64,000 nt of DNA from Martelella limonii. Lineage in GTDB: Bacteria; Pseudomonadota; Alphaproteobacteria; Rhizobiales; Rhizobiaceae. Below, piece by piece: positions 34,971 to 60,365 of the stretch (its first letter is position 1; each line of letters begins with the position of its first letter). The notes beneath the pieces were generated by a model. That model was not told the DNA's origin. It made no database searches and saw only the letters and a list, made by a program, of their open reading frames with translations. Made by a program: the position numbers and the translations under genes. The stretch covers positions 1-64,000 of the forward strand of contig NZ_JABUOU010000005.1 in assembly GCF_013344475.1 (NCBI RefSeq), written 5' to 3'.

Positions 34971-34986
34971 AATATACTAGTGTAAT
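34971..34986. promoter_or_regulatory. Operator copy 1 (AATATACTAGTGTAAT), NRPS/monooxygenase divergent promoter
   Basis: This is a member of the eight-copy ATTATAYTARTRTAAY family, with central palindrome ACTAGT. It lies 63 bp upstream of the NRPS ATG and 50 bp upstream of the monooxygenase ATG, so it can control both. Confidence 0.7.
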
Positions 34987-35035
34987 TTAGCTTTCAAGTT
35001 TAAGCGAGTTTGCCGTTCAACGGGAGGATAGGCGG

Positions 35036-36550
35036 ATGAACGACGATATCGGCAATGACGGCTGGAGTGCCGGGCCGGCCTCCTCGCGACAGGGTGCGCA
35101 GGCCCATGATGCGGCGGTGCGGTCAGCGCTGGCGCTTCGGGGCGGGTTTCCGGATGACTGGGTCGTACCCCGGAAAGGCATCGATCACGACGTCGTCATC
35201 GTCGGGGGCGGCCAATCGGGCGTGGCGATCGCCCTTGCGCTCAAGCGGGCGGGGATCACACGCGTGAGCGTCATCGACGCCGCGCGCAGCGGCGAGGAGG
35301 GGATTTGGCGCACGACGGCGCGCATGAAATCTCTCCGCTCTCCCAAGCAGCTCCCCGGGCCGGAACTGGATGTGCCTGAAATGAGCTTCCGTGCCTGGTA
35401 CGCCGCCCGCACCGGCGATGAGGCCTATGATGCGCTGCAATCCATACCGCGGCTGGTATGGGCGCAGTATCTCGACTGGTTCAGGATTATCGCGGGCGTG
35501 ACGGTGCGTTATCAAACGCGGCTTGATAGGGTCGAAAGCAGCGAAAACGGCCTGCGTCTCGCCTTGTCGGTTGAAGGCGAAGAACGCATCGAGACGTGCC
35601 GAAAAGTGGTCCTCGCCACCGGCTTTCTGGGCGGCGGTTGCGCGCGCATTCCCGACTGGATCAAAAATGAGCTTTCGCCCGAACGGTATGCCCATGCCGA
35701 TAATGTGATCGATTTCACTGCTTTGAAAGGGCGCAGGCTGGCCGTTTTCGGCGCCGCCTCTTCGGCCTTCGACGCCGCTGCGGTAGCGCTTGAGACCGGC
35801 GTCCATTCGGTGCACATGTTCTGCCGGCAGGATGATCTGGAGCGCTATTCGCGCATGCGGGTTCTCTATTATCCAGGATCGGTCGAGCACTTTCCGCGCC
35901 TGCCCGACCGACACCGGTGGCACATCATGAATGCGCTCTGCTGCCGTGCCCAAGGCCCGGTACCAGAAACGGTGCGCCGCGCCGCGCAGTTTCAGAATTT
36001 TCATCTCCATCTGGGCGCTCGCGATGCCGTGCCGGTGTTTGACGGCCGTTCAATCGCGATCGGGGACCTCACATTCGACTATGTCATTGCGGGCACGGGT
36101 TATGGCGTTGATCTCGCCGCGCGACCGGAACTCGCCAGCGTTTCTGACGGGATTGCCTTGTGGGGGGATCGCTATCAGCCGCCCAAGGAGGAACGGAACG
36201 AGGAGCTCGCGCGGTATCCTTATCTCACGCCGGGATTCGGCCTGACGGCGAAAGGGCCGGACCGGCGCGTCGAGGACATTCACCTCTTCAACGCGGCGGC
36301 GATGCTGAGCAACGGCCGCAATCCCGCGGAGGTCAGCGGGTTCCGGCACGGGATACCGCAATTGGTGTCGGCGATCGGCGCTGATCTTTACACGACCGAC
36401 GCCGAAATGCACGTGAAGCGGGCGTTGACGCCGGTCGAGCCTATCCTGAGCGCAGACGAATACAGGCACAGCATCTGGACCGAGCGCGCGCCGGCGGTCT
36501 CGCGGAAAGACCGCGCCATGCAGCCCGTCCGGCAAGATGACGCCTGTTGA
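35036..36550 (+). CDS. FAD/NAD(P)H-dependent monooxygenase (CzcO/SidA-like)
   Basis: ATG 35036 follows GGGAGGATAGGCGG. The 504-residue protein has an FAD Rossmann motif (DVVIVGGGQSGVAIALALKRAG, about 53-74) and a second dinucleotide motif, LAVFGAASSAFDAAAVALETG, for NAD(P)H. CRKVVLATGFLGGG and FDYVIAGTGYGVDLA are the usual ATG-type FMO motifs. An N- or S-oxygenation, or a carbon hydroxylation, is possible. It diverges from the cysteine-specific NRPS across a shared operator and is followed by a free-standing PCP gene, so a carrier-bound aminoacyl group is a reasonable substrate. Confidence 0.82.
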   Translation: MNDDIGNDGWSAGPASSRQGAQAHDAAVRSALALRGGFPDDWVVPRKGIDHDVVIVGGGQSGVAIALALKRAGITRVSVIDAARSGEEGIWRTTARMKSLRSPKQLPGPELDVPEMSFRAWYAARTGDEAYDALQSIPRLVWAQYLDWFRIIAGVTVRYQTRLDRVESSENGLRLALSVEGEERIETCRKVVLATGFLGGGCARIPDWIKNELSPERYAHADNVIDFTALKGRRLAVFGAASSAFDAAAVALETGVHSVHMFCRQDDLERYSRMRVLYYPGSVEHFPRLPDRHRWHIMNALCCRAQGPVPETVRRAAQFQNFHLHLGARDAVPVFDGRSIAIGDLTFDYVIAGTGYGVDLAARPELASVSDGIALWGDRYQPPKEERNEELARYPYLTPGFGLTAKGPDRRVEDIHLFNAAAMLSNGRNPAEVSGFRHGIPQLVSAIGADLYTTDAEMHVKRALTPVEPILSADEYRHSIWTERAPAVSRKDRAMQPVRQDDAC

Positions 36551-36639
36551 TATCGGAAGTCCGGAAAGGACGCGCGCCGGTTGTTCTCGGACGGGTGAAC
36601 CAGGGCTGGGTTTTGTTTTAGATTCAAGAAAGGGAGACT

Positions 36640-36906
36640 ATGATGAGCGAACCAACGGTGATTGACGAGGCCGGCCTTCAGGCGCGGATACGCGACATCG
36701 CCGGCGTTCTTCTGCGGGCCGAAACGCCTGCCGCCGAAGACCATTTTCTGGCGCTTGGGGGCGATTCCCTGCTCGCGACGGTCTTTGCCCGCAAGGTCGA
36801 GGTCGAATGCGGGCCGCGCCCGTCGCTTGAGGAGATATTCACGCTGTCCTTTGCCGAAATGGCCGAGGCGCTTGCGGGGCGCCAGGACGGCGCCGCGCGG
36901 CCGTAG
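36640..36906 (+). CDS. Free-standing peptidyl/acyl carrier protein
   Basis: An 88-residue single carrier domain starts at ATG 36640 (or 36643) after AAGGGAG. The phosphopantetheine site is S43 in FLALGGDSLLATVFA, with the GGDS form typical of peptidyl carriers. It follows the flavin monooxygenase by 89 nt on the same strand. No dedicated adenylation enzyme lies beside it, so it must be charged by the NRPS A domain, by the FAAL, or by transfer from another carrier. Confidence 0.85.
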   Translation: MMSEPTVIDEAGLQARIRDIAGVLLRAETPAAEDHFLALGGDSLLATVFARKVEVECGPRPSLEEIFTLSFAEMAEALAGRQDGAARP

Positions 36907-36907
36907 C

Positions 36908-36927
36908 GGCCCGGCAGCAGCCGGGCC
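36908..36927. terminator. Perfect hairpin between the PCP and FAH genes
   Basis: GGCCCGGC and GCCGGGCC form an 8-bp stem with an AGCA loop right after the PCP stop codon, between convergent genes. It is symmetric, so it could serve both strands, but has no T-tract. Confidence 0.45.
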
Positions 36928-36947
36928 TCGGTAACTGGCGGTCTTTA

Positions 36948-37787
36948 TCAGGTGTCGGCGCGCACCTGCTGGCGCTGGCCGCCGAGGCCCTCGATGCCGA
37001 GTTCGACCGTGTCGCCGGCTTTCAGATAGCGCGGCGGCTTCAGTCCCTGACCCACGCCGGGCGGAGTGCCGGTCGAAATGATGTCGCCCGGGTGCAGCGT
37101 CATGAAGTCGGACAGATAGCTCACCACATGGGCGACGCCGTAGACCATCGTGGCCGACGAGCCATCCTGCATCGTCTCGCCATTGACCTTCAGCCACATC
37201 TTCAGGTTCTGCGGGTCGGCAATCTCGTCGCGCGTGACCAGCCAGGGACCGACAGGGCCGAACGTGTCGCAGGACTTGCCCTTGGTCCACTGGCCGGACC
37301 GCCGGGTCTGGAAGTCGCGCTCGGAGACGTCGTTGATCACGCAGTAGCCGGCAACGTGTTCGAGCGCCTCATCGCGGGAGACGTGCTTGGCGCGCTTGCC
37401 GATGACGACGCCGAGTTCGACCTCCCAATCCGTCGCGGTGGCGTTGCGCGGGATGACGATGTCATCATCGGGCCCGACGATCGCCGAGGTGGCCTTCATA
37501 AAGATCACCGGCTCCGGCGGTACCTCCATGCCGGATTCGGCGGCGTGGTCGGCGAAATTAAGGCCGATGCAGATGAATTTGCCGGTGCCCGAAACACAGG
37601 GGCCGAGGCGTGATGCTGCCTCCGCCATGGGCAGCGCCTCGGGATCAAGGTCTTTCGTCCATGAAAGGTCTTCAAGCCATTTGCCGGCAATGTCATCGAC
37701 GATCCCCGAAAGGTCGCGAATGTTTCCGTCCTTGTCGAGCAGCCCGGGGCGTTCCTCGCCAGCGGGTCCATAACGCAGCAGTTTCAA
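36948..37787 (-). CDS. Fumarylacetoacetate hydrolase family protein, probable 2,4-diketo-3-deoxy-L-fuconate hydrolase
   Basis: TTG 37787 with upstream GCGGAG gives the standard N-terminus (KLLRYGPAGEERPGLLD) and 279 residues. FAH-family metal ligands appear in DWEVELGVVIGKRA and CVINDVSERDFQ. The segment TFGPVGPWLVTRDEI and the C-terminal GDIISTGTPPGVG are typical of the subgroup acting on 2,4-diketo-3-deoxy sugar acids. In non-phosphorylative fucose or rhamnose breakdown this enzyme splits the diketo acid into pyruvate and lactate. It forms an operon with the SDR gene upstream (17 nt gap). Substrate assignment rests on the neighbouring pathway genes. Confidence 0.8.
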   Translation of the reverse strand: MKLLRYGPAGEERPGLLDKDGNIRDLSGIVDDIAGKWLEDLSWTKDLDPEALPMAEAASRLGPCVSGTGKFICIGLNFADHAAESGMEVPPEPVIFMKATSAIVGPDDDIVIPRNATATDWEVELGVVIGKRAKHVSRDEALEHVAGYCVINDVSERDFQTRRSGQWTKGKSCDTFGPVGPWLVTRDEIADPQNLKMWLKVNGETMQDGSSATMVYGVAHVVSYLSDFMTLHPGDIISTGTPPGVGQGLKPPRYLKAGDTVELGIEGLGGQRQQVRADT

Positions 37788-37804
37788 TAGAGTATCTCCG
37801 CAAA

Positions 37805-38551
37805 TCAGTAGGTGGTTCGACCGCCGGAAAGATCGAAGGCGGCGGCAGTGGTGAAGCTGTTTTCGCGCGAAACCAGCCATGCGACCATCGCTGCGGCCTC
37901 GTCGACCTCCAACAGGCGGCCACGGGGGATGCGCGAGCGCATATATTCGATATGCTCTTCGGTGAGCTGTTCGAGAATGCGGGTCTGTGCCGTCGCCGGC
38001 GTAATGCAGTTGACCGCAATATCGTATTGCGCAAGCTCCTTGCCGAGCGACTTCGTCATCCCCATTACCGCGGCTTTCGAGGCGGAATAGGCGGCAGCGT
38101 TGGGGTTGCCTTCCTTGCCAGCGACGGAGGCGATATTGACGATCCGTCCGTAATTGCGTGCCTTCATGCCCGGTACCACCGCGCGGTTGACGTAGAAGGT
38201 GCCGTTGACATTGATGTCGATGACTTTCTTCCACATCTCGATGTCATAATTGTCGAGAGGTGCGGCGGCGCCCGCGATGCCTGCGGAATTGACGAGGATC
38301 GATATCTTGCCGCTTGCCTTCTCAGTGGCGGCAGCAGCGGCTTCCACCGATGACCAGTCCGAAATGTCCGCGATCTGGACGGTTGCCGCCTCGCCTATTT
38401 CGGCGCGAGCCTGTTCCAGCCTGTCTTTATCGATATCCCACAGGGTGACCGTCGCACCGGATGCGACGATGCGTCGGGCCATGGCGAAGCCCAATCCCTG
38501 GGCGCCTCCGGTGACGACGGCGTGTTCGCCTTCAAGGTCGATCTTGTTCAT
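37805..38551 (-). CDS. SDR dehydrogenase, probable 2-keto-3-deoxy-L-fuconate dehydrogenase
   Basis: This 248-residue classical short-chain dehydrogenase has the NAD motif TGGAQGLGFAMA near residue 14, NSAGIAG, and the catalytic Ser-Tyr-Lys set in IASVAGKEGNPNAAAYSASKAA. The aspartate in LWDIDKDR after the second strand indicates NAD preference. Together with the FAH protein downstream it fits the oxidation of 2-keto-3-deoxy-L-fuconate to the diketo acid. An alternative is L-fucose dehydrogenase, but the aldo-keto reductase opposite fits that step better. The shared promoter carries operator copy 2. Confidence 0.8.
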   Translation of the reverse strand: MNKIDLEGEHAVVTGGAQGLGFAMARRIVASGATVTLWDIDKDRLEQARAEIGEAATVQIADISDWSSVEAAAAATEKASGKISILVNSAGIAGAAAPLDNYDIEMWKKVIDINVNGTFYVNRAVVPGMKARNYGRIVNIASVAGKEGNPNAAAYSASKAAVMGMTKSLGKELAQYDIAVNCITPATAQTRILEQLTEEHIEYMRSRIPRGRLLEVDEAAAMVAWLVSRENSFTTAAAFDLSGGRTTY

Positions 38552-38652
38552 AGGTTCGCTTCCTCCTCATTGTGTGCGCGACCGCCTCGAGACGCCATGT
38601 CCCGGCATTTTCCTGCATGGCGGATACGCTGATATATCCCTTGAATAGTCTA

Positions 38653-38668
38653 ATTATATTAGTGTAAC
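38653..38668. promoter_or_regulatory. Operator copy 2 (ATTATATTAGTGTAAC), SDR/AKR divergent promoter
   Basis: This copy lies between the divergently transcribed SDR (start 38551) and aldo-keto reductase (start 38720). It matches the 16-bp consensus at 15 of 16 positions of the copy at 42745. Confidence 0.72.
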
Positions 38669-38719: not shown

Positions 38720-39745
38720 TTGAAGGCGACTGACGAACGGAAGGTGGGACGGACGGATCTTAACATGACCAGGCTCGGCATGGGGTGCGCCTCGCTCGGC
38801 GGGCTGTTCGCCCCGGTGGATGCGCCGACATGTCTTGCGACGCTGCAGGCCGCCTGGGATTGCGGCATTCGTTATTTCGATGCCGCTCCGATGTACGGGC
38901 TCGGCCGGGCGGAACATATGCTCGGCTATTTCCTGCGCGAGCAAATCGGCGCGCGCCCGAGCATCGTCAGCACCAAGGTCGGGCGCCTGATGGCGCGGGA
39001 CCGCCCTGGCCGGGAACTGCCGCCCGAGGCCGACAAGAACCCCCTCGATCCGGGCTGGTGGAACGGGCTGCCCCTTCGGGAAGTGTTCGACTATTCCTAT
39101 GACGGCCTGATGCGCAGTTTCGACGACAGCCTCCAGCGCATGGGGCGCGCGGGCGTTGATATCCTTTACGTGCACGATATCGGCAAGCTGACCCATGCCG
39201 AGCTTGCGGAGCATCACTGGAGCGCATTGACCAAGGGCGGCGGCTTCCGTGCATTGTCCGATCTGCGTGACGCCGGCATCATCAAGGGCTTCGGTCTCGG
39301 CGTCAACGAGGCCGAGGTCGTGATGGCGGCCATGGATGAGGCGGAGCTGGATTGCACCCTGCTTGCAGGTCGCCATACCCTGCTCGACCAGAGCGCCGAT
39401 GCTCTGCTCGAACGCGCCGCCCGCGAGAATATGGCAATCGTGATCGGCGGCGTATTCAACTCGGGCATTCTCGCCTCGGCAGCCGGCGGCAATCTCAAAT
39501 TCGATTATCAGGATGCGCCCGAGGCGATCGTCAGAAAGGTCGGCGAGTTGCGGGCGGTGTGCGACGAGTTCGACGTCCCGCTTGCCGCCGCGGCCATACA
39601 GTATCCGTTCCGCCATGAAGCCGTAACCTCGGTGCTGATCGGCGCCAAGCACCCCGACAGGGTGAAGCAGAATGTCGACTGGTTCGAAATGGCATTGCCG
39701 GAGGAGCTGTGGCAGACGCTCGCGGCGCACGGATTGGCAGGGTAG
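38720..39745 (+). CDS. Aldo-keto reductase, probable L-fucose dehydrogenase (D-threo-aldose 1-dehydrogenase type)
   Basis: TTG 38720 is preceded by AAGGGAGG at a good distance and gives 341 residues. The AKR tetrad is visible: Asp and Tyr in YFDAAPMYGLG, Lys in VSTKVGR, His in DILYVHDIGK. Sequence blocks such as LPPEADKNPLDPGWWNGLP and RHTLLDQSADALL are typical of bacterial L-fucose/D-threo-aldose and pyridoxal 4-dehydrogenases. With the mutarotase and lactonase in this locus, oxidation of the sugar to its lactone is the likely reaction. The stop codon lies inside a perfect hairpin shared with the convergent dehydratase gene. Confidence 0.82.
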   Translation: MKATDERKVGRTDLNMTRLGMGCASLGGLFAPVDAPTCLATLQAAWDCGIRYFDAAPMYGLGRAEHMLGYFLREQIGARPSIVSTKVGRLMARDRPGRELPPEADKNPLDPGWWNGLPLREVFDYSYDGLMRSFDDSLQRMGRAGVDILYVHDIGKLTHAELAEHHWSALTKGGGFRALSDLRDAGIIKGFGLGVNEAEVVMAAMDEAELDCTLLAGRHTLLDQSADALLERAARENMAIVIGGVFNSGILASAAGGNLKFDYQDAPEAIVRKVGELRAVCDEFDVPLAAAAIQYPFRHEAVTSVLIGAKHPDRVKQNVDWFEMALPEELWQTLAAHGLAG

Positions 39746-39766
39746 GGGCGGCTGAGGCGCCCCTAC
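39742..39766. terminator. Perfect hairpin spanning both stop codons of convergent genes
   Basis: GTAGGGGCG and CGCCCCTAC form a 9-bp stem with a 7-nt loop. The arms contain the TAG of the aldo-keto reductase and, on the other strand, the TAG of the dehydratase. There is no T-tract. Confidence 0.45.
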
Positions 39767-41274
39767 ATGGTGGCGCCCAGGCTCCAAGGCACGAATTCAT
39801 TGTCGCCATAACCGAGCGTTTCCGATTTCGTCCTGCCGCCTGAGGCCACTCTGAGAATCTCGTTGAAGATCTCCTCGCCCTTGGCAGCGAGCGAGACGCC
39901 TTCCAGCACATCGCCGCAATTGACGTCCATATCGTCGTTCATCTGTTCGTAGATGAAGGAGTTGGAGGCGAGCTTGATCGACGGCGTCGGCTTGCAGCCA
40001 AAGGCGGAGCCCCGGCCGGTGGTGAAGCAGAGCACATTGGCGCCGCCGGCCACCTGGCCGGTCGCCGAAACCGGATCGTATCCGGGGGTGTCCATGAACA
40101 CCAGCCCGCGCTCGAGGATCGGCTCGGCATATTCGAGAACAGCGCGAAGATTGGTGCTGCCGCCCTTGGCCGCGGCGCCGAGCGATTTCTCGAGGATCGT
40201 GGTCAGGCCGCCGAGCTTGTTTCCGGGCGATGGATTGTTGTTCATTTCCATATCGTGGCGGGCCGTGTAGTCTTCCCACCAGCGGATCCGCTCGATCAGC
40301 TTTTCCCCGACCTCGCGGTTTTCCGCGCGCCGGGTCAAAAGGTGTTCCGCACCGTAAATTTCGGGCGTTTCGGAAAGAACGGCCGTACCGCCATGGGCAA
40401 CCAGCATGTCGACCGCCGCGCCCAGTGCCGGGTTTGCGCTGATGCCGGAATAGCCATCCGAGCCGCCGCATTGCAGCGCCAGAACGAGTTCGGAAACCGG
40501 TTGGGTAGTCCGCCGGGCGGCATTGACGGTCGGCAGCATGTCGATGATCGCCTTGACGCCGGCATCGACGGTTTTGCGCGTGCCTCCGGTTTCCTGGATG
40601 GTCATGGTGCGGAAGGTCTCGCTCTCCGTGATATCGTAGGATTTCATCCAGCGCGGAATCTGGAACGCCTCGCAGCCCAGTCCCACCATCAGCACGCCGC
40701 CGACATTCGGGTTGGTTGCAAAGCCCCATTGGGTGCGCTTGAGCACGTCGTAGGCCGGACCCTTCACATCGATGCCACAGCCCGTGCCGTGGACGAGTGA
40801 GATCACGCCGTCGACATTGGGATATTCATCGAGCACGCCGGACCGGTTGATTTCATCGGCTATGAAACGGGCGACGCTCGCCGAACAGTTCACCGAGGTC
40901 AGCGTCGCAATGTAATTGCGGGTGCCGACCCTGCCGTTGGCCCTCTGAAATCCCTCGAAGGTCGCGCGGGCGCTGTCATCGACAAAGCGTGTGGGATGCG
41001 TATTGGTGCCGAACTCATAACTGCGCTCGAAGGAATGGAGGTAGACATTGTGCTCGTGAACCCATGCGCCGGGGAGGATATCCTCGCGTGCAAAGCCGAT
41101 GGTCTGGCCGTATTTCACGATCGGTTCGTCCTTGCCGATCTTGCGTATGGCCATCTTGTGGCCGCGGGGAATATTGGCCAGCGCCGTAACGGCATGGGCC
41201 TCCTCTCCCTTCTTGAGCGGGTCCACGACCAGCAGGATATTGTCTGTGTCGGATAGTTTTATGAAACGTGTCAT
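39763..41274 (-). CDS. UxaA-family dehydratase, probable L-fuconate dehydratase
   Basis: This 503-residue protein has an N-terminal SAF domain (about 1-90) followed by the altronate/galactarate dehydratase core: GRVGTRNYIATLTSVNCSASVA, SLVHGTGCGIDVKGPAYDVL, GLGCEAFQIP, LQCGGSDGYSGISANPALGAAVD and MDTPGYDPVSATGQVAGGANVLCFTTGRGS. These Cys residues fit an iron-dependent hydro-lyase. In this neighbourhood dehydration of L-fuconate (or an isosteric acid) to the 2-keto-3-deoxy acid is most likely, replacing the enolase-superfamily fuconate dehydratase used by some other bacteria. Operator copy 3 lies upstream. Confidence 0.83.
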   Translation of the reverse strand: MTRFIKLSDTDNILLVVDPLKKGEEAHAVTALANIPRGHKMAIRKIGKDEPIVKYGQTIGFAREDILPGAWVHEHNVYLHSFERSYEFGTNTHPTRFVDDSARATFEGFQRANGRVGTRNYIATLTSVNCSASVARFIADEINRSGVLDEYPNVDGVISLVHGTGCGIDVKGPAYDVLKRTQWGFATNPNVGGVLMVGLGCEAFQIPRWMKSYDITESETFRTMTIQETGGTRKTVDAGVKAIIDMLPTVNAARRTTQPVSELVLALQCGGSDGYSGISANPALGAAVDMLVAHGGTAVLSETPEIYGAEHLLTRRAENREVGEKLIERIRWWEDYTARHDMEMNNNPSPGNKLGGLTTILEKSLGAAAKGGSTNLRAVLEYAEPILERGLVFMDTPGYDPVSATGQVAGGANVLCFTTGRGSAFGCKPTPSIKLASNSFIYEQMNDDMDVNCGDVLEGVSLAAKGEEIFNEILRVASGGRTKSETLGYGDNEFVPWSLGATM

Positions 41275-41322: not shown

Positions 41323-41338
41323 TGTATACTAATATAAC
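41323..41338. promoter_or_regulatory. Operator copy 3 (TGTATACTAATATAAC), dehydratase promoter
   Basis: This copy lies about 50 bp upstream of the dehydratase ATG and reads as the consensus on the opposite strand. The rest of the 41339-41555 spacer contains no recognised element. Confidence 0.65.
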
Positions 41339-41555: not shown

Positions 41556-41885
41556 TCAGGAGAGGTGGAAGACTTCTTCCATGGACGCCCACCACTCGCC
41601 GGAGGCGCGGGTAGCAAGCGGCGCCTGCATCGGGTCGCACAGTTCCCACCATTTCTTCATGGCGGCCGATTCGGCCATTCGGGCCGCATCGGCGGCGAAG
41701 TCGTTGCCATGATATTCCCAGTAGGCGAACAGAAGGTTCTCGGGCTCGCGCAGGAAGATCGAATAGTTGCGGATATTGGCCTTGCCGAGCAAGTCGAGAA
41801 TTTCCGGCCAGACGGCGGCGTGAACGCGCTTGTATTCCGCGATCGCCTCGGGTTTCACGCCGATGCAGTGAGCCATTCTTTGCAT
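41556..41885 (-). CDS. L-fucose/L-rhamnose mutarotase (RhaM/FucU-like)
   Basis: This 109-residue dimeric ferredoxin-like-fold protein has the family signature YKRVHAAVWPEILDLLGKANIRNYSIFLR and the C-terminal WWELCDPMQAPL with EEVFHL. It interconverts alpha and beta anomers of 6-deoxyhexoses so that the dehydrogenase receives the right form. It is downstream of the GntR gene on the same strand with a 26-nt gap, so regulator and mutarotase are probably co-transcribed. Confidence 0.85.
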   Translation of the reverse strand: MQRMAHCIGVKPEAIAEYKRVHAAVWPEILDLLGKANIRNYSIFLREPENLLFAYWEYHGNDFAADAARMAESAAMKKWWELCDPMQAPLATRASGEWWASMEEVFHLS

Positions 41886-41911: not shown

Positions 41912-42586
41912 TCAGTCGGTAAGATCGCCCGCGACTTCCAGCGTATTGAGGAGCGATGTGTTGAGGTGGCTCTCCATGGCGCGCGCCGCGCCCTCCGCAT
42001 CGTTACGGGAGAGCGCCTCCAGAATGGCCTCGTGCTGCTCGATCGTCTGGGCGCCATAGCCCGGTCTCGGGATCGCCAGATAGCGGCCGCGGTCCATCTG
42101 GGCCTTGGAAATATCCACCGCGCGCCAGATCGACGGGAAACCGCTGATTTCGGTAATGGTGCGGTGAAAAACATCGTCGAGCTGGATAGCGTTGGCATAT
42201 CGGCCGCGGGAAATCGCCAGCCGGTGGGCGGCGATATTGTCTTCCAGCAGTTCGGCGGTGGCGGGCGTGAAATTGGCTGCGGCGTGGCGCGCGCTTTCCA
42301 TCTCGAGCGCGCGGCGGATCACATAGGCCTCTTCTAAGTCCTTGCGACTGATCGGCGCGACATAGGTGCCGGTCTGGGCGAGGATCTTCACCATCCCTTC
42401 ATCGCTGATGCGCTTCACCGCTTCGCGAACGGGTGTGCGCGATACGCCGAGCGCTTCGGCAATCGCGATCTCGTTGATCGGCTCGCCCGGTTTCAGCTTT
42501 CCGCCCACGATCATGGTGCGGATCATCTGGTAAATCTGGTCCCTCAAAGGCAGGGATCTGTTCAATGTCGAGGGATCGAAATCCAT
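41912..42586 (-). CDS. GntR/FCD transcriptional regulator, candidate master regulator of the sugar-NRPS/PKS regulon
   Basis: This 224-residue protein has an N-terminal winged helix (LPLRDQIYQMIRTMIVGGKL, INEIAIAEALGVSRTPVREAVKRISDEG, about 14-64) and a C-terminal FCD effector domain with the metal-binding DDVFHRTITEIS and a later His-rich helix (QTIEQHEAILEAL). FCD proteins respond to sugar acids and other carboxylates. Operator copy 4 lies 37 bp upstream of its ATG, consistent with autoregulation. Its location amid the fucose-type genes and the presence of the same operator at the NRPS, PKS and glycosyltransferase promoters make it the best candidate ligand-responsive repressor. Confidence 0.85.
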   Translation of the reverse strand: MDFDPSTLNRSLPLRDQIYQMIRTMIVGGKLKPGEPINEIAIAEALGVSRTPVREAVKRISDEGMVKILAQTGTYVAPISRKDLEEAYVIRRALEMESARHAAANFTPATAELLEDNIAAHRLAISRGRYANAIQLDDVFHRTITEISGFPSIWRAVDISKAQMDRGRYLAIPRPGYGAQTIEQHEAILEALSRNDAEGAARAMESHLNTSLLNTLEVAGDLTD

Positions 42587-42622: not shown

Positions 42623-42638
42623 ATTATATTAGCATGTC
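42623..42638. promoter_or_regulatory. Operator copy 4 (ATTATATTAGCATGTC), upstream of the GntR gene
   Basis: The left half matches the consensus fully and the right half is degenerate, so this is a weaker site. It lies in the divergent region between the GntR gene and the sugar ABC operon. Confidence 0.55.
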
Positions 42639-42744: not shown

Positions 42745-42760
42745 ATTATATTAGTGTAAT
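42745..42760. promoter_or_regulatory. Operator copy 5 (ATTATATTAGTGTAAT), best-conserved copy
   Basis: This copy matches the consensus at nearly every position. It lies midway between the GntR gene and the sugar ABC operon, about 120 bp from copy 6. Confidence 0.72.
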
Positions 42761-42864: not shown

Positions 42865-42880
42865 GTTATACTAACATAAC
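42865..42880. promoter_or_regulatory. Operator copy 6 (GTTATACTAACATAAC), just before the sugar ABC operon
   Basis: GTTATACT and AACATAAC form an almost symmetric site ending directly before ATG 42881. Binding here would block the leader of the transporter message. Copies 5 and 6 could hold a repression loop. Confidence 0.7.
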
Positions 42881-47342: not shown

Positions 47343-47350
47343 TAATGACC

Positions 47351-47376
47351 GCCGGCCCGGATTAATCCGGGCCGGC
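47351..47376 (+). terminator. Strong hairpin after the sugar ABC operon
   Basis: GCCGGCCCGGA and TCCGGGCCGGC form a perfect 11-bp stem with a TTAA loop, followed by TTCCCCTT. It may terminate or attenuate transcription before the monooxygenase-KS pair 75 nt downstream. Confidence 0.65.
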
Positions 47377-47451
47377 TTCCCCTTGATGGGGCGGTGCCCA
47401 TTCAATTGGGAGGCCTGACGATCGATTGCGCAGCTCCGCTGGAGGGCAACG

Positions 47452-50240: not shown

Positions 50241-50244
50241 GGCC

Positions 50245-53200
50245 TCAAACCTTGGCAGCCCTCTGGCTTTCAATCTCCTCGGCCATGCTTTCGATGGTCG
50301 GATGGCGGATAAACCAGCGCGGGGTGATCCCGACGCCGAACAGGCGGTTGAGTTGCGAGGAAAGCTTGACGGCCATGATCGAATCCACCCCCATGCTTGC
50401 AAATCGGGCCGTCCGGTCGACCTCGTCCGAACGCAGCATGGACGCAATCTCAGCGGTCAGAATGTCGGCGACGGTTTCCTGCTGCGATTGAGCGGTCGGG
50501 CCGGCATCAACCGCGACGTCCTGCGCCATGAATGCCGCGAGTTCCGCAATGGACTGGTGGCGCAGCAGTTCCTTCGGGGTCAGCCGCCGCCCGAGCGCCT
50601 TGTCAACGAGGACGATCAGCCGGACCGCCATCACGGAATCAAGACCGATCGCAGAGAAGCGCGTCTGTGGGTCGAGGTCGTTGATCTTCAGAAGGTCGCC
50701 GATGATGGCGGTCAATGTGGTTTCCAGCGGGGCGGATCGTTCCGAAACCGAAATTTCCGGACGCGCGCGAGGCGTATCGCCAGTATCCGGCTGTGTCGTG
50801 CTCCCGGCTTTTGCCGGAGGTCTCTTGGTGTCGGCTTCGGGCATGCTTGCCGGTGCGATGGCTGGTCCCCGGAGGAGCGCGTTTTCACGGTCAAGTGCAG
50901 TCCAGATCTCGTTACTCCGGCCGTAGAGCATGATCGTTTCCGGCGAGTCCTCAGCCATCGCGGACCGGAACGCCTGGAGGCCGATGTCAAGGTCGAGGAA
51001 GGCAAAGCCGAGGGATGCAAACCATGTGTCGAATTCCGGGGTGACGTATTTGTCCCATTTCCAGCGCGACCAGCAGATCGCCTTGCTCAGGCCGCGACGG
51101 CGGCCCGCCGCGACTTCGCCGGCACGCCATGCGGCGAAACTGTTCTGGAACGCGCAGCCATAGGCATAGTCCGATCCTCCGGCAAGCCCGAGCGAAGCCA
51201 GCGAGGAGAAGGCCACGAAGAAATCGAGATCGAGCGCCGCCGTCGCCCGGTCGAGATTGATCGTTCCCTGAACCTTCGTGGCCGAAACTTTGTCGAAAGT
51301 GTCCCAGTTCTTGCGGAAAATATAGGCGTCGTCATGGGCGGTGACCAGATTGACGATTCCGTCGATCTTCCCATGTTCTGTAAGGATCTGCCCGATGAGC
51401 TCGTCCGTCCGGGCGCTGTCGGTGATGTCGCACTGCCGGTAGAGCGCACGCCCGCGCATCGCGGAGGAGAGGGGCGCGATCGCGGTGTTTTGGTCGGCTT
51501 TGGCCAGCGATCGGCCGCAGGCGATGAAAGTCGCGTCAATGTCCTGGCCGAGCCTTGCGATGAGACGCCGTCCAAGCTCGCCGGCGCCACCGGGAACAAG
51601 ATAGACCCCGCCATCGCGGAACCAGACCGGGGCCGGTGTCCTTTCCGCTTCGCCCTCGCCGAGAACGCGCGTCGTCCGGTCCGGATTGAAGCGCAGACAG
51701 GCCGGCACGGCGGGCGGTTTGGACGTGACCTCGGCAAGCGTCAGCGACTGCCAGTCAGACGCCGCCTCCGGCCCGAAGAACAGGGTGTGGAACCGCAGAT
51801 GCGCATTCTCGAGAAAGGCGGATTTCGCAAAGGCGGTGATCGCGTCGATGGCCGGCCGTCGCGCAAAGTCTTCCACGGCCACATGGAATATATCGATCTC
51901 GCGGCCGAACGCGTCTTCCATCAGAGCGTTGGCGAGGCAGAAGGCCAGTTCCGGCTCCGTGCGAGACGGGTCCGGCGCGTCCGATGACGGAAGCACGATC
52001 ACCGCCTCGGGTTCGGCGCCCGAGCATTGCCAGACGTCGAGCGACGGCCGGAAGCAATGTTCCTCTTCCGAGAAGACCGACGAGATGACCGTCGCCGTTC
52101 CAGCCAATGCTCTTTCGAAGGCGGGCATATGGGCGGCAATCTGTTTCTCGCTCCGGCCGATTACCCAGAGGCATCTGCTGCTCCAGATGCGCGGCTCCGC
52201 CTGGGCGGGCCTCGTGCGCCAGCCGGGTCGCAGGCCGATGAGCTCGGGCTCGAAAGCGCTGGCGACCTCTTCGAGGCGTGGCTCGAACCAGCAGCTTCTG
52301 CTCCGCCATGGAACGATTGGCAGGGAAACGCGGCGTGCCTGATCGATCGCCGGCCAGTTGACATGCCCGCCCTCAAGCCAGACTGCGACGTGGTCGGGAA
52401 GCGACAATCTTCGAGCGGTCGCCGCGTCGGCTATGATGGTGTCGTCAGTCGCGATGCCCGATATGATGGTGTTGAGCCGATCGACAAGGGTCTCGGTATA
52501 GGCAACCTTGATGACCACGCGCACCGGCCGGCTTTCTCCGCGCTGCTGCAGCGTGAAGGCGATGTCCTTCAGAAGGTGCGCCGGGCCGGTTTGCACCTTC
52601 AGTGCAAGAATGGCTTCGGCGATGGCTGCCGCATGGTCCTGAAGATCGGTCTCGGTAGAGGCCGTCAGCGGAATGAACACGGGATCGACGCCGACAGGTG
52701 AACGGTCGGATGGCAGGTGTTGCGCCAGCGCGACCGATGCATTGGCCCCTCCGAAGCCGAACGAATTCACAAGCGCGGCGAGCGGGGTATCGGGCGTCTG
52801 CCACGGCCCGGTCTCGGCCTGAAGGCTGAGCCCGTCCTCGAAAACGATATGGGGATTAAGCGTTTTGAAATTTGAGAGACCCGGCAGCCTGCGGTCCCGT
52901 ATCGCCATGGCCACGTTGATGACGCCCGCGACGCCCGCCGCCGGCTCCAGATGACCGATATTGGTCTTGACCGATCCGACGGTGCAGGGGGAAGGCGGCA
53001 GATGCCGATCCGCGCGAACCTGCCGGAAGGCGCTCTTCACCGCCTCGATTTCGATCGGGTCGCCGAGTTCCGTGCCGGTTCCGTGCATTTCGATGTAGGA
53101 AATATCGTTCGGCGTCAGCCCCGCATCTTCCATGACGCTGATCATCAGCCTCGCCTGCGCGCGGCTGTTGGGCGCTGTGAGCGATGCGGCCTTGCCGCCG

Positions 53201-54302
53201 TGATTGACGGCGCTACCCTTGATCACGGCGTAGACGTGGTCGCGGTCGCGCTCGGCATCGGCGAGCGTCTTGAGCAGCAGCACGCCGACGCCTTCTCCCC
53301 GCACATAGCCGTCGGCCGCGGCATCAAAGGTGCGGCATTGGCCCGTTGGCGAAAGGACGCCCAACTGTCGGCCCATGATGAACATGTCAGGAGTCAGCAG
53401 CAGGTTGACCCCGCCGGCCACAGCCATCGTGCATTCGCCGCGACGTATGGCCTGCACGGCGCTGTGAATGGCAACCAGGCTGCTCGAGCAGGCCGTGTCG
53501 ATGGCCGCGCTCGGGCCATGGACGTCCAGCAAAAACGAGACGCGATTGGCGATCATGGCATGGGCATTGCCGGTGCAGGCCTGTGCGCTGGTCAGGCCGC
53601 GCTGATCGATAAGCCTCTGATAATCCTGAAACTGGACACCGGCGAAGACGCCGACCGATTGACCGGTGAGCGCACGGGGATCGTGGCCAGCATCCCATAT
53701 TGCTTCCCAGGCACCGGTCAGAAACAGGCGGTGCTGGGGATCCATGGATTCCGCCTCGTATTGCGAAATTCCGAAGAAATCAGGCGCGAACTGGTCCTCG
53801 CCCTCGATGAAGGCCCCCCATTTGACATCCGTGCGACCGCTTTCGCTGAAAGGGTCGCCCTCGATGCTTTTCCAGTTCCACCGCCGACGCGGAATTTCCG
53901 TGACGCCGTTCCGTGCTGCGATCTGGTTTTTCCAAAACTGTTCCTTTGAGCGCGCGCCGGGCAAGCGGCATGAAATCCCCACAATGGCAATGTCGTCGCC
54001 TTCGTGGTCGCCGTGGTGCCACGTGTCTTTTTCAGGAGTCGGGGTCTCGGAGGGGCTACCGCTCGCTGCCCAGTGCTCGTCGAGATGCTCAGCAAGCTCG
54101 TTCAGGGTCGGGAAGGTGAAGAGCGTGATGGTGTCGACGGGGTGGCCGAAACTGTCGGAGAGCCGGGCGGCGAAGAGTTTGAGCGATGCCGAATCGAAAC
54201 CCAGATTGCCCAGGGTCTCATCGGCATCGATCACGGTTTCGCTGATTTCGAGGATTGCGGCGGCGAGACCCTTCAGGGTCGGGAGGGTCGGGGTCGCGGA
54301 TC

Positions 54303-54306
<4 letters not shown>
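50245..54306 (-). CDS. AT-less polyketide synthase ACP-KS-KR-ACP-ACP
   Basis: This 1353-residue type I PKS starts at ATG 54306, overlapping the upstream KS gene by ATGA. An N-terminal ACP (S39 in LGFDSASL) probably completes the module of the separate upstream KS. The KS (about 104-530) has a full triad: C273 (DTACSSS), H408 (EMHGTGTELGDP), H452 (NIGHLE). A linker and KR structural half lead to the KR at about 895-1110, with VPGGAGELG, S1035 and Y1047; the usual following Asn is C1051. Two C-terminal ACPs carry S1224 and S1309. No AT, DH, ER or TE is present. It should add one malonyl unit and reduce the beta-keto group to a hydroxyl, with the free AT supplying malonyl. Confidence 0.88.
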
Positions 54307-56188
<1,882 letters not shown>

Positions 56189-56189
<1 letters not shown>

Positions 56190-58270
56190 CAGCTTTGGCT
56201 TTCCCGGCTGTTCGCGCCGAGCGCGGCCCTCAGGCTCGCGATCATGTCCTGGCGCGACGTGCCGGCGGGCTGTGGGTCCGGCGGGGCCTCGGCGGGTGCG
56301 GCCAGATGGGCGGCGAGCCGGGCAGGTGTCGGATGTTCCCAGATGACGGTCGGATCGAGCGAGAGCGAAAACCTCCGGTTCAGCGCCGCCACGAACTGCG
56401 CCGCCAGAACCGAATCCAGGCCGATCGCGCCGAAACTCTCGCCAGTGCGCAGCACCTTTTCTCCGACCAGCTTTTGCAACTCCTCCATCAGGCTTTGCAG
56501 TAGTTCACCCGCCTGCAGGCTGGCGTAGCTTTCTGTTCTGGGACGGCGTCCCGTCTCCAGCGGCTTGATATCGCCAGCCAGATAAAGGTCGCGGGTCAGG
56601 CGGCGCTGGACCTTTCCGCTTGTGGTCTTTGGAAGGGAAGCGGGCGGGATGAACACAACGTCCGCCAGCGTGATATCATGCTCCTGATAGACCGCTTCGC
56701 GCATGATGCTTTCGAGTTCGGCGAAATCCGTCGAGTGGCGGGCGGTGCGCTCGACCTCGTGCACCACCACGACCGCATCGCCGTTTTCGGTGTCGATTGC
56801 GAAGGCCGCGCCATTCACGGTGCGGAAGGCTGGGTGGCAATCCTTGGTGGTCAATTCGATATCCTGCGGATAGATGTTGCGCCCCCTGAGGATGATGACA
56901 TCCTTCAGCCGTCCGGCAATGAACAGCTCGCGGGCGTGCAGCACGCCGAGGTCGCCGGTGCGCAGGAAGCCGGAGCGGTTTGTCCCGCTCGGGCCCTGGC
57001 CGAATGCGTTGCCGCTTTCTCCGGGCGCCTGCCAGTAGCCTGATGTGATGCTGCCGCCGCGAACCCAGACCTCGCCGATCTCGCCTTCTGCGCAGGGGGA
57101 AAGGGTCTCGGGGTCGACAATCGCGATTTCCATGTCGTCGGCCGGGCGGCCCGAACTGACCAGCTCGACGGCGTCGCCGCCGTCCTGCGCCCTGGCAAAC
57201 CGGCCGGCGGCGAGGGCGCGCCTGTCGACGGACACGATGACGGGCGGCTCGCCGACCCGCGACGTGGTGCTGAGCAGTGTCGCTTCCGCCAGCCCATAGG
57301 CCGGGAAGAAGGCATCCGCGGCAAAGCCGTAGGGACCGAAGCGTTCCTCGAAGCTGCGCAGCGTCGAGGCGTGGATCGGTTCCGCGGCATTGAGGGCATT
57401 GCGCCACGCCCGCAGATCAACGCCGTCCATCTGGTCGTCGCGGATCGCCTTGACGCAGAGCCTGTACCCGAAATCAGAGGACATGCTGGTTGTGGCCCGA
57501 TAGCGGCTGATGGCCTGAAGCCAGAGCGCCGGATTGCCACTGAATGAGGCCGGGCTCATCATATAGCAGGTGGCGCCGACAAAAAGGGTCTGGATGACGA
57601 TGCCGATCAGGCCGAGATCGTGAAACAGCGGCAGCCAGCTCACGATCACGGTATCTTCATCATGGCCCATATGTCGCGCCGTGAGGTCTGCATTGTGCAT
57701 CAGGTTGCCGTGGCTGACCATGACCCCCTTCGGGTTGCTGGTCGAACCGGAGGTATATTGCAGGAAGGCGATGTCGGTGGATTTCGGCAAGGCCGCGTCC
57801 CAGGCCTCGGCCGCGCCCTCCTCGATCAGGTCCTCGATGCAGAGGAATTCCAGCGCGCTGATCGAAGGGTAGGGGCGGGACCAGGCCATGATCTTGTCGA
57901 AGAGCGCGCGACAGGTGAGGATCAGTCGCGGCCGGCAATCCGCCACGATCGCCTCGAATGTCATCCAGCTGCGCTTGCTGGGCTTCGGCGTGTGGGCCGG
58001 AACGGCGATCGCGCCGCCGAACAGGGTTCCGAGAAACCCGATGACGAATTCGCTGCCCTGCGGAAACAGCAGCAGCACGCGCTCGCCGCCGGCTTGCCTC
58101 CGCTGGAGCGCGCCGCCGATGCGCCTGCATGCCTCATCGAGGTGGGCGTAGCTGATGTGGCCCTGCTCTTCCGTACCGTTTCGGAGGTTCACATAGGCGA
58201 TCTTCGGCCCCAGCCGTTGGGCGTTGTCACGAACCACGTGAACGACGGATTCGGGTAGGGTGGTGGGCAT
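56189..58270 (-). CDS. Fatty acyl-AMP ligase fused to ACP (loading protein)
   Basis: ATG 58270 behind AGGAGGAG gives 693 residues. The FAAL part (about 1-575) has FLQYTSGSTSNPKGVMVSHGN, WLPLFHDLGLIG, FFPAYGLAEATLL, GFLRTGDLGVL and GRLKDVIILRGRNIYPQDIE, all typical of fatty acyl-AMP ligases rather than acyl-CoA synthetases. The ACP (about 590-665) carries S620 in GAIGLDSVLAAQF. It activates a free fatty acid as acyl-AMP and loads it on its own ACP as starter for the KS encoded next. It heads the PKS operon, and operator copy 7 lies 73 bp upstream. Confidence 0.88.
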
Positions 58271-58342
58271 GCGATCTCCTCCTGCGGCGCTTGCCGGTAT
58301 CCCTCCTCCGGGCCGGCGGCCTCGCGATGCTGCGCTCAGCCA

Positions 58343-58358
58343 ATAACACTAATATAAT
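58343..58358. promoter_or_regulatory. Operator copy 7 (ATAACACTAATATAAT), FAAL/PKS operon promoter
   Basis: On the minus strand it reads ATTATATTAGTGTTAT. It sits between the FAAL gene and the end of the lactonase gene, where only the FAAL-PKS operon starts, so it links the PKS operon to the sugar regulon. Confidence 0.7.
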
Positions 58359-58459
58359 AGTATTATTCTCGATGTTGTAAATGCGTGGCGGTCCTCAACA
58401 GGTGTCACAGCCATGATTCTGATACGTGACGAACGCGCGACGCCGCGCGCGTATACCTT

Positions 58460-59323
58460 TCACGCCGACAGGGCGGGGTCGCTTGGTGCGGGGTAGGCCG
58501 GAAGGCCGTAGAAACGGACTGCATTGCCGCCAAAAATTCCCGGATCGCGGACGAGATGCGCGGGCAGGGCCGCCATCGTCGCGGCCAGGACGTCGGCGTA
58601 GTTTCCGGCCAGACGGCAGACAGGCCAGTCGCTGCCAAAGATGAGGCGTGGCGGGCCGAAAACGTCGAGCGCGTGATTGATGGCGGGACCAAGGTCGTCC
58701 ACGCTCCACGCCGTGGCGTCGGCTTCGGTGATCAGTCCAGAAAGCTTGCAGAAGAGCGTGTCGAATTCCGCCAGACGGGCAAGGCCGTCGTTCCAGAAGC
58801 CGAGGTCTCCGGAAGCGATCGGCGGTTTGGCTAAGTGGTCGATAACCGCGCGCAGGCCCGGCACCAGGCGAAGAGCCTCCGCGACATGCGGAAGGTGGCG
58901 CGCGAGGACGAGAAAATCGAACGTAAGGTCCTGATTCGCCAATTCCTCCAGCGCCTTGAGGACGCGCGGGCGGACGATCCAGGCATCATCGGCGATATCC
59001 TGAAGCATCGGCCGCAGGCCCAGAAATTTCGGACGTTCGGCATATCTGGAAAGCGTGCTCGCAAACTGCGCGTCCTCCATATCAAGCCAGCCGACAACTC
59101 CGGCCACGAAATCCGTCTTTTCGGCGATATCCAGCAGGAAATCGGTCTCCGCCTGCGTCGGCGCGGCCTGGATCAGAACCGTGCGCCGGATGCCGAACCG
59201 CGAAAGAAGCGGGGCGAGGTCGCAGACGAGGTAATCCCGCTGCAGGATTTCCGGGGCGCCGGGCATCCAGGGATAGTCGCCGCGCGCGCGGTTCCAGAGA
59301 TGATGATGAGCATCGACAAGCAT
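58460..59323 (-). CDS. Amidohydrolase-family sugar lactonase, probable L-fuconolactonase
   Basis: This 287-residue amidohydrolase-2 TIM-barrel protein has the HxH metal motif in VDAHHHLWN, the conserved DYPWMPG segment, VIDHLAKPPI with a ligand His, CKLSGLITEA and the Asp in IFGSDWPVC. This exact pattern is that of L-fucono-1,5-lactonase and L-rhamnono-lactonase. It supplies the lactone-opening step missing from the sugar cluster 17 kb away. It is downstream of the glycosyltransferase gene on the same strand, 63 nt apart, under operator copy 8. Confidence 0.83.
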   Translation of the reverse strand: MLVDAHHHLWNRARGDYPWMPGAPEILQRDYLVCDLAPLLSRFGIRRTVLIQAAPTQAETDFLLDIAEKTDFVAGVVGWLDMEDAQFASTLSRYAERPKFLGLRPMLQDIADDAWIVRPRVLKALEELANQDLTFDFLVLARHLPHVAEALRLVPGLRAVIDHLAKPPIASGDLGFWNDGLARLAEFDTLFCKLSGLITEADATAWSVDDLGPAINHALDVFGPPRLIFGSDWPVCRLAGNYADVLAATMAALPAHLVRDPGIFGGNAVRFYGLPAYPAPSDPALSA

Positions 59324-59386
59324 GACGTGTCCGCATGGTTCGAAAGGCGGCGGCCGGTCGCAGGGCTTCTACGCCGGTCGCGCGCT

Positions 59387-60274
59387 TCAGGTCGTAAGAC
59401 GTTGATCGGCGAGGGCGTCGTTGAGGTCGAAGGACTGAACGTCGATCAGCATTTCGGTCTCCATGCGCTGGAACTTGCCATGGAGATAGATCTTGTTCGG
59501 ACGCGACGAGGCCGAATTGACTTCGTGGGACTTGCCGTGCGGGATATGGATCGAGCTTGCGTCCCGGCTGAGCTTGAACTCGACGCCCGAAAGGTAAAGG
59601 GCGAGGGCGAAATCCAGATCCTCGGCACCCCAGGTCGCGTAGTTCTCGTCATACAGGAAGCGTTCGCCCAGCGTTTCGCGACGAACCGAGAGGTTGCAGC
59701 CCCAGGATATCGCCCATGGCGCGGGCAGGTCCATCAGGTTTTCGCCGAACTTGCGGTAGGTCCGTTCGCGCATGTCGGCGAACCGGTCTTCAGCCCGGAA
59801 ACGTTCAAGCATGGCTTCGACATTGTCGAGATCCAGGGCCTCCAATGCCCGACCCAGCGCTTCGTCGTCATTGCCGGTATTGCTGAAGCCGAAAACATAG
59901 CCGATGACGAGGGCAGACGGCGACGAATGCGCCTCGACATGCGCGCGCACGCAGCCTTGCGAAACAACCACCCCGCAGTCGAGAAGGATGCAGACCTCGC
60001 CTTCCGCCAGTTCAAGGCCGAGGTTGCGCGCCCGCGCCAGGCGATAGCCCTTGTCCTTTTGGTAGATATAGCGGATCTGGCAATCGGCGGTGTCAATGAA
60101 GGTGCGCACCAGTTCATAGGTGGCGTCCGACGAGCCGTCATCGACAATGACGATCTCGAAAGCGTCTGCCGGCATGTCGCTGGCCACAAGGGACTGAAGG
60201 GTCTTGGCGAGCATCTTCTCCCTGTTGTAGGTCGGGACGATGACTGACGCCTTGAACCTGGTGTTGTTGCGCAT
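59387..60274 (-). CDS. GT2-family glycosyltransferase
   Basis: This 295-residue GT-A fold protein has KASVIVPTYNREKMLAKTLQSL at the N-terminus, IVIVDDGSSDATYELV and DKGYRLARARNLGLELA for nucleotide-sugar binding. The usual DxD position reads LLDCGVVV. WGAEDLDFALALYLSG is the WGxED motif of galactosyltransferase-7-type C-terminal domains (catalytic acid). No signal or membrane segment is seen. Its promoter has operator copy 8 and it is co-oriented with the lactonase gene. Decoration of the NRPS/PKS product is the attractive role; a surface polysaccharide role cannot be excluded. Confidence 0.78.
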   Translation of the reverse strand: MRNNTRFKASVIVPTYNREKMLAKTLQSLVASDMPADAFEIVIVDDGSSDATYELVRTFIDTADCQIRYIYQKDKGYRLARARNLGLELAEGEVCILLDCGVVVSQGCVRAHVEAHSSPSALVIGYVFGFSNTGNDDEALGRALEALDLDNVEAMLERFRAEDRFADMRERTYRKFGENLMDLPAPWAISWGCNLSVRRETLGERFLYDENYATWGAEDLDFALALYLSGVEFKLSRDASSIHIPHGKSHEVNSASSRPNKIYLHGKFQRMETEMLIDVQSFDLNDALADQRLTT

Positions 60275-60349
60275 GACTTGTGCCCCTCCCGAGCGCTATT
60301 CCAAAGCAAAATGACGCGGTGACCTTTTCACGTCTAACTTGAAAATGCT

Positions 60350-60365
60350 AATATATTAATGTAAT
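60350..60365. promoter_or_regulatory. Operator copy 8 (AATATATTAATGTAAT), glycosyltransferase-lactonase promoter
   Basis: This copy lies 76 bp upstream of the glycosyltransferase ATG and is the rightmost copy found in the window. Confidence 0.62.

Follow-up and report, generated by a model that had tools for sequence, protein, structure and literature searches.

The stretch of DNA analysed here (the window) comprises 64,000 nucleotides of Martelella limonii, positions 1 to 64,000 of contig NZ_JABUOU010000005.1, and carries a locus in which genes for the use of a sugar are interleaved with an assembly line of the trans-acyltransferase polyketide synthase and nonribosomal peptide synthetase type (trans-AT PKS/NRPS). 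Eight copies of one 16-bp palindrome stand in front of genes of both kinds, and a GntR-family regulator (GntR1; 41912..42586, minus strand) lies among them. Comparison with related genomes makes it likely, in our judgement, that GntR1 is the repressor of an old L-fucose-type regulon and that sugar use and metabolite synthesis start together. The sugar genes are, on the minus strand, a FAH-family hydrolase (36948..37790), a short-chain dehydrogenase/reductase (SDR; 37805..38551), a UxaA/GarD-type sugar acid dehydratase (39763..41274), a FucM-like candidate mutarotase (41556..41885) and an L-fucono-1,5-lactonase-like amidohydrolase (58460..59323) and, on the plus strand, an aldo/keto reductase (AKR; 38780..39745) and a CUT2-type ATP-binding cassette (ABC) sugar transporter with an ATPase, two permeases and a binding protein (42939..47342), the starts of these last two being taken from the Martelella mediterranea annotation. 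The biosynthetic genes are a discrete FabD-like acyltransferase (AT; 29154..30020, minus), a phosphopantetheinyl transferase (PPTase; 30035..30820, plus), an NRPS (30874..34908, minus), a FAD/NAD(P)-dependent monooxygenase (FMO; 35036..36550, plus), a standalone acyl/peptidyl carrier protein (ACP; 36628..36903, plus), a luciferase-like monooxygenase of the MupA/Atu3671 family (LLM; 47452..48504, plus), a KS0-like ketosynthase (KS3; 48476..50215, plus), a trans-AT PKS (50245..54306, minus), a further ketosynthase (KS2; 54303..56189, minus), a loading fatty acyl-AMP ligase with ACP (FAAL; 56189..58270, minus) and a GT2 glycosyltransferase (59387..60274, minus).

An earlier reading of the window from its letters and open reading frames (the sequence-only reading) had listed eight copies of the palindrome, and our scan found all of them. 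Counted on the better strand against ATTATAYTARTRTAAY, the sites between the NRPS and FMO genes (34971..34986), between the SDR and AKR genes (38653..38668), 5' of the dehydratase gene (41323..41338) and 5' of gntR1 (42623..42638) have 1, 0, 2 and 3 mismatches, and those in the GntR1/ABC intergenic region (42745..42760), 5' of the ABC operon (42865..42880), 5' of the FAAL-KS2-PKS operon (58343..58358) and 5' of the GT2-lactonase operon (60350..60365) have 0, 2, 1 and 1. The gene context given in that reading was correct, with the ACP, the AT/PPTase pair, the mutarotase and the LLM-KS3 genes as additions of ours, and it had rightly seen no further copy in the window: with up to three mismatches the scan returned 19 strand-matches at 10 places (mean 0.12 and maximum 1 in shuffled windows), and the two extra places, 34963 and 58351 with three mismatches, are the sites at 34971 and 58343 read 8 bp out of register. 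These out-of-register matches would thus represent a third, overlapping half-site at each of the two main biosynthetic promoters, where two dimers might be bound.

Both sets of genes occur together in seven genomes of Martelella, Nitratireductor and Mesorhizobium, namely that of the window, M. mediterranea DSM 17316 (G005; GntR 99%, cluster proteins 93-100%) and the five relatives Nitratireductor sp. B36, N. arenosus, N. alexandrii, Mesorhizobium sp. B2-3-4 and Root554. The operator was found at NRPS|FMO, SDR|AKR and GntR|ABC in all seven, before the dehydratase in all seven (with a weak copy of 3 mismatches in Root554) and, again in all seven, 5' of the FAAL operon (of the KS2-PKS operon in the case of N. 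arenosus and N. alexandrii, G103 and G105). The copies at 42745 and 42865 were recovered by the window and genome scans and in the maps of the relatives; the copy before the GT2-lactonase operon is also present in M. mediterranea, and the maps of the remaining five clusters showed none at GT2. Both biosynthetic-promoter operators differ from the symmetric consensus by 0 or 1 mismatch in every one of the seven genomes. In an operator-anchored alignment of six genomes, excluding M. mediterranea as a near-copy of the window, 13 of 16 columns are invariant at NRPS|FMO and 13 of 16 at FAAL/KS2 (16 of 16 at SDR|AKR), and the four flanks of the two biosynthetic operators have 7, 0, 2 and 3 invariant columns of 60; pairwise identity at these promoters is 0.91 in the operator versus 0.30-0.38 in the flanks. 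Gene order differs among the clusters, the FAAL operon being on the other side in Mesorhizobium and the GT2, lactonase and AT/PPTase genes being shifted. Furthermore, the assembly line starts with a FAAL in Martelella, Nitratireductor sp. B36 and Mesorhizobium, and no FAAL was detected by tblastn within the mapped 60 kb of N. arenosus and N. alexandrii; both species possess an additional large PKS, and further operators precede their lactonase/PPTase and AT genes. This PKS contains KS, dehydratase, ketoreductase (KR), methyltransferase, ACP and enoylreductase domains as read in N. alexandrii only (L130 2606-12214; L124/L125), N. arenosus being covered by its open reading frame (ORF) map. In these two species the assembly line is altered while the presumed switch is kept.

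The palindrome is largely restricted to the cluster. In the own genome (4,537,701 bases, 40 contigs) all 7 of the 7 places with at most two mismatches lie inside it, and at three mismatches there are 26 forward and 29 reverse strand-matches versus 15 and 18 for the pattern read backwards. Due to this background, the degenerate site at 42623, proposed to serve autoregulation, could not be claimed by itself; we accepted it because its sequence, TTATATTAGnnTGTC, recurs at the same place 5' of GntR in four relatives (G005, G101, G102 and G104). For the genome scans of the relatives and of genomes with orphan GntR genes we used RTTATAYTARTRTAAY, and for the count over the GntR loci described below RTTAYAYTARTRTAAY, both symmetrised from the pattern of the sequence-only reading partly in view of the relatives' sites. 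With at most one mismatch, 26 of 26 places in the whole genomes of the five relatives, 6 of 6 in M. mediterranea and 2 of 2 in Stappia (G107) are inside the cluster or at the sugar locus, and G075, with a 54% GntR, has none at one mismatch and a single two-mismatch site adjoining its GntR. Additionally, 400 permuted palindromes of the same letters (out of 839 permutations drawn) gave a mean of 0.15 sites with at most one mismatch in the relatives' stretches, versus 26 observed, and 398 of them yielded three or fewer in the five relatives. Matches in AT-rich spacers throughout the genome at equal density, the outcome that the sequence-only reading had named as speaking against it, thus appeared neither in the own genome nor in the relatives, and we rejected an AT-rich artefact on the genome-wide restriction, the relatives' 26 places and the permuted-palindrome counts. 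We give hardly any credence to the palindrome being an AT-rich element of promoters instead of a specific operator: it does overlap putative -10 regions, but it is symmetric, has no copy with up to two mismatches elsewhere in the own genome, and nearly all of its permutations stay near zero.

GntR1 belongs to the FadR/FCD subfamily, as both an N-terminal GntR winged helix-turn-helix (PF00392, 65.8 bits, cut-off 27) and a C-terminal FCD domain (PF07729, 93.4 bits, cut-off 24.3) were found. The Asp/His/His/His set of its FCD domain, which we take to be the metal-site residues, aligns in all four positions with the Thermotoga maritima structures 3fms and 3sxy. The metal-type FCD subfamily points to a carboxylate ligand, which would most naturally be one of the sugar acids of the pathway. 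Relatives of GntR1 have 99, 79 and 54% identity, and 52-91% (best segment) across the 58 loci described below. Of three regulators tested, GntR1 was the sole one kept at all seven clusters (81-99% identity outside the window). Within the mapped 40-60 kb stretches, the only same-place relative of GntR2 (60773) is in M. mediterranea and is partial (86 aa matched), and IclR (27080) has no orthologue in the other six clusters; we rejected both as the operator's regulator since neither is kept across clusters. The sequence-only reading had placed all sites in one regulon under GntR1, and on comparative grounds this part is well supported, because the operator accompanies this GntR and the sugar operons across several families and because both biosynthetic promoters keep it in seven genomes. 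Binding of the palindrome by another transcription factor appears quite improbable. The link between GntR1 and the motif is comparative, and orphan GntR loci mostly lack the motif, which would fit another factor; against this, GntR2 and IclR, the regulators compared, are not kept at the other clusters, and in families where the neighbouring genes differ, as in Kaistia, the motif still stands beside GntR.

A GntR1 query against contigs from one genome per species (84,980 species) gave 58 loci of close relatives. By tblastn in stretches of up to 20.7 kb, 5 of them (the five relatives above) have sugar and PKS/NRPS genes, 33 sugar genes only and 20 neither, although some "neither" labels may be due to truncated contigs, L106 and L117 being short. 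A site with at most two mismatches is present at 5/5, 30/33 and 2/20 of these loci, respectively, and the three sugar loci without it are those that rest on one gene each (L065, L080, L102). Sugar-only carriers of the site include Shinella, Devosia, Kaistia, Stappia, Oceaniradius, Falsochrobactrum, Roseibacterium and an Oceanospirillaceae metagenome-assembled genome, and given this wide distribution the sugar role of the regulon is most likely ancestral. In a GntR tree of 60 rows (the fragment L117 dropped, three proteins added) the seven PKS/NRPS-linked proteins stand separate among sugar-only ones with four label changes, at least three of them forced by well supported branches, and the tree does not distinguish gain from loss; this scatter led us to reject a single fused locus inherited unchanged and agrees with an ancestral sugar role. 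Among 394 family genomes, five have an FMO orthologue (63-100%), namely the own genome (G000), M. mediterranea and three that match mapped clusters by coordinates. A class-wide sample of 385 gave only 40-42% FMO relatives, in 4 genomes besides the own, and 397 order genomes gave LLM relatives of at most 50% identity, in 10 besides the own. No biosynthetic cluster of this type without GntR was found in these family, class and order samples, each of which covers part of its group. A 50% FMO relative on an Azospirillum plasmid was discarded, as its surroundings in the one region read are genes for sarcosine oxidase, dipeptidase and transport, with no PKS/NRPS cluster. Several orphan GntR loci retain decayed forms of the gntR-proximal site, and such relics suggest regulators orphaned after loss of the sugar operon. 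No link to sugar emerged from the 10 ORFs next to two of the orphan GntR genes, and at 16 Mesorhizobium loci (L062, L066, L069, L070, L074-L077, L079, L081, L083-L085, L092, L095, L114) a GntR of 80-84% identity persists with neither sugar genes nor operators close by.

The sugar genes provide candidates, at family level only, for every one of the six steps in route 3 of non-phosphorylating L-fucose use, a degradative pathway to pyruvate and lactate through FucM, A, B, C, F and G (PMC11199699). The mutarotase would take the FucM role, the AKR that of an L-fucose 1-dehydrogenase (FucA), the lactonase that of FucB (FuconLaconase, E 1.7e-63, 215 bits, cut-off 400), the dehydratase that of FucC, the SDR that of a 2-keto-3-deoxyfuconate 4-dehydrogenase (FucF) and the FAH-family protein that of a 2,4-diketo-3-deoxyfuconate hydrolase (FucG). 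The substrate is thus predicted to be a 6-deoxy-L-hexose or a stereochemical relative, most likely L-fucose, in line with the fucose-type catabolism of the sequence-only reading. It is possible, though less likely than not, that the regulon is real and its sugar is L-rhamnose, L-galactose or D-arabinose: the first match of the FAH protein is a rhamnonate-route model, the M. mediterranea counterpart of the mutarotase (96%) is annotated as L-rhamnose mutarotase and one UxaA/GarD relative prefers D-arabinonate (PMC6336799), whereas L-fucono-1,5-lactonase is the sole NCBIfam match of the lactonase and the Rhizobiales L-rhamnose operon is under a DeoR-family regulator (PMC3870299). As the rhamnose regulator in Rhizobiales is this DeoR-type RhaR, we rejected a simple L-rhamnose regulon, although L-rhamnose may still be the substrate. 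M. mediterranea DSM 17316 has a second dehydratase (55%) on another contig. In the other 11 genomes of the genus that were searched (G001-G004, G006-G012), a dehydratase with 54-60% identity stands at a different place; nine of these genomes have a GntR of 36-39% no more than about 10 kb away from it, and this is probably a different sugar acid locus with its own regulator.

The sugar genes could also serve biosynthesis, the importer and oxidative enzymes supplying or shaping a sugar or sugar acid that GT2 attaches to the product, which would make the whole a single biosynthetic cluster instead of a catabolic regulon that has taken in a biosynthetic one. GT2 and the lactonase form one operon-like pair in the window, both relocate within the cluster together with biosynthetic genes, and no exporter is annotated in the cluster, although no dedicated exporter search was made. 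We nevertheless consider this unlikely, as the regulator and sugar genes are found with no PKS/NRPS genes in the fetched stretch at 33 of the 58 loci, of which 30 carry the operator, and the gene set fits by family a degradative route.

Several observations weigh against a GntR1 regulon of L-fucose type that includes the whole assembly line. Exactly-two-mismatch places outside the cluster number 7 in the five relatives and 6 in M. mediterranea, and one of the four places with at most one mismatch in IMCC20636 (G099) and one of the three in Rhizobium setariae (G106) lie outside the sugar locus. Two permuted palindromes that closely resemble the motif reach counts of 20 and 18 in the relatives, where they still match the same sites, and in the window, where permuted palindromes average 0.23 at two mismatches, near-copies reach up to 7, the number of the motif itself. 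Of the 20 orphan GntR loci, 18 have no operator, even though the helix-turn-helix is almost the same in most of them, and none of the 11 orphan-GntR genomes scanned has a site with at most one mismatch. The AT/PPTase pair (29154-30820) has no operator in the window, and neither do the LLM-KS3 genes, which lie behind the ABC operon; a GC-rich hairpin without T-run separates the genes of the sugar-binding protein and the LLM (47343-47451, in 7/7 clusters by eye), and LLM-KS3 would need read-through from the ABC operon past it. Lastly, the NCBIfam matches of the lactonase and the FAH protein fall under the curated cut-offs, and the dehydratase superfamily UxaA/GarD includes enzymes for other acids (PMC6336799), so that we name the sugar as "L-fucose or a relative".

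The position of the operators gives an indication of how GntR1 could act. A CTTG stands 12-13 bp 5' of the operator on the coding strand in 33 of 58 oriented promoter cases from six genomes, these being picked sites that are not independent, with divergent ones counted both ways; such a spacing would place the -10 element inside or at the edge of the operator. At the 42745 promoter, TTGTCA-N17-TAATAG, the operator occupies the spacer and extends to the -10, which suggests repression by occlusion. According to the model that we propose, gntR1, the sugar importer and the catabolic operons all have promoters that the GntR1 operator (RTTAYAYTARTRTAAY) overlaps, and the trans-AT PKS/NRPS cluster is embedded in the sugar locus with the same operator at its NRPS/FMO, FAAL-PKS and glycosyltransferase-lactonase promoters. 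In the absence of the sugar, dimeric GntR1 would block RNA polymerase at all operator promoters. A sugar acid intermediate, fuconate or 2-keto-3-deoxyfuconate, would fill the metal-type FCD pocket and release GntR1, and its release would switch on catabolism and metabolite synthesis jointly. The operators, their genome-wide restriction, their conservation and their inheritance together with GntR1 are observed; binding, the repressing polarity, the ligand, the identity of the sugar and the product are what we infer.

The assembly line shows features of a trans-AT PKS/NRPS hybrid, with KS modules without integrated AT, a discrete AT and FAAL loading. The PKS is organised as ACP-KS-KR-ACP-ACP, KS3 has its second active-site His replaced (NIGF, read by eye in the window sequence) and the LLM matches TIGR04020 with 426 bits (cut-off 244). 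The NRPS consists of a heterocyclisation (Cy)-like condensation, an adenylation (A), a thiolation and a thioesterase domain. The Cy motif is DxxxxDxxS, and it is not intact here, its first Asp being Ala in 7/7 genomes (e.g. FALWMMDGWS), for which reason ring formation is not claimed. Full-length solved relatives of the NRPS, aligned from the N-terminus, include BmdB (7ly7) and dihydroaeruginoic acid synthetase (7emy), with linear gramicidin synthase ranking above both. Read at what we take to be the code positions, the A domain has the code DLYNMSLIW in 7/7 genomes. This code is listed for Cys (PMC12283262). The "lipopeptide-like" product of the sequence-only reading is thus refined to an acyl-polyketide joined to one cysteine unit: the predicted product is likely a fatty-acyl polyketide, alpha-hydroxylated and ending in a cysteine-derived unit, and perhaps glycosylated, with the order of its forming steps likewise deduced from the genes.

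A catabolic repressor that also governs a non-catabolic trait is found in Agrobacterium, where an opine-catabolic repressor controls traR, although that trait is quorum sensing and plasmid transfer and here it would be a natural product. The principle of a nutrient-sensing GntR regulator controlling secondary metabolism is already known from DasR of Streptomyces, a member of the HutC subfamily (PMC4918961) that senses a nutrient sugar and links its metabolism to secondary metabolism (PMC4398421). The likeness lies in this coupling by a GntR-family sensor, represented here by a shared operator with predicted binding; DasR, however, has a wide regulon, and it binds, according to PMC4398421, the promoters of pathway-specific antibiotic regulators, whereas the regulator here is of the FCD type, with near-perfect sites that lie in one cluster and immediately precede biosynthetic genes. 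A FucR regulon for L-fucose/L-fuconate use has been predicted in microbial-mat bacteria, including a Rhodobacteraceae bin and Halomonas, and likewise has predicted regulator sites at oxidative L-fucose loci, but the available text mentions no biosynthetic genes for it (PMC5507952). With respect to route 3 of L-fucose use, the six step candidates agree, whereas here the dehydratase is of the UxaA/GarD superfamily and PKS/NRPS genes are interleaved (PMC11199699). The LLM next to a KS of non-elongating type resembles the MupA + KS0 bimodule for alpha-hydroxylation in mupirocin (PMC10952193), which differs from the arrangement here, where the LLM and KS genes are freestanding and follow a sugar transporter operon. 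We found no described fucose-linked NRPS control in open-licence papers and, among the matches listed, no described product of this kind from Nitratireductor, Mesorhizobium or Martelella; the available part of a sponge-isolate survey that covers Martelella, polyketide and nonribosomal terms (PMC3827338) names no Martelella product. The statement of the sequence-only reading that no such case is described thus stands for the exact combination within this literature, and not for the principle. What appears to be new is a local FCD-type catabolic regulator whose operator stands directly on an embedded PKS/NRPS cluster, in at least three genera and with a variable assembly line.

The compound would probably be made only when the fucose-type sugar is present. 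Biosynthetic clusters often give no product in laboratory culture for want of a known trigger, and here the sequence indicates a fucose-type sugar as the trigger, which makes the locus a directly testable case of a catabolic repressor taking over secondary metabolism and suggests a route to further ones, the search for catabolic operators preceding biosynthetic genes. More tentatively, and a little short of an even call, a fucose-catabolic repressor could be the main switch of the embedded PKS/NRPS in bacteria of fucose-rich surfaces, the compound being made only on that food, for instance for defence, and the operator being a portable on-switch that outlasts exchange of the assembly line; the genera lead us to guess at algal or root mucilage as such surfaces. 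Immediately next to the M. mediterranea cluster, whose NRPS is predicted to use cysteine, there are genes for a 2-amino-thiazoline-4-carboxylate hydrolase and for another FMO, the latter 38% identical to that of the cluster (L152 11802-13788, equal to pMM593 14019-16005). The cluster of M. mediterranea DSM 17316 is on plasmid pMM593 and the window contig (G000:C35) carries repC near its end, and both Martelella clusters are probably on repABC-type replicons.

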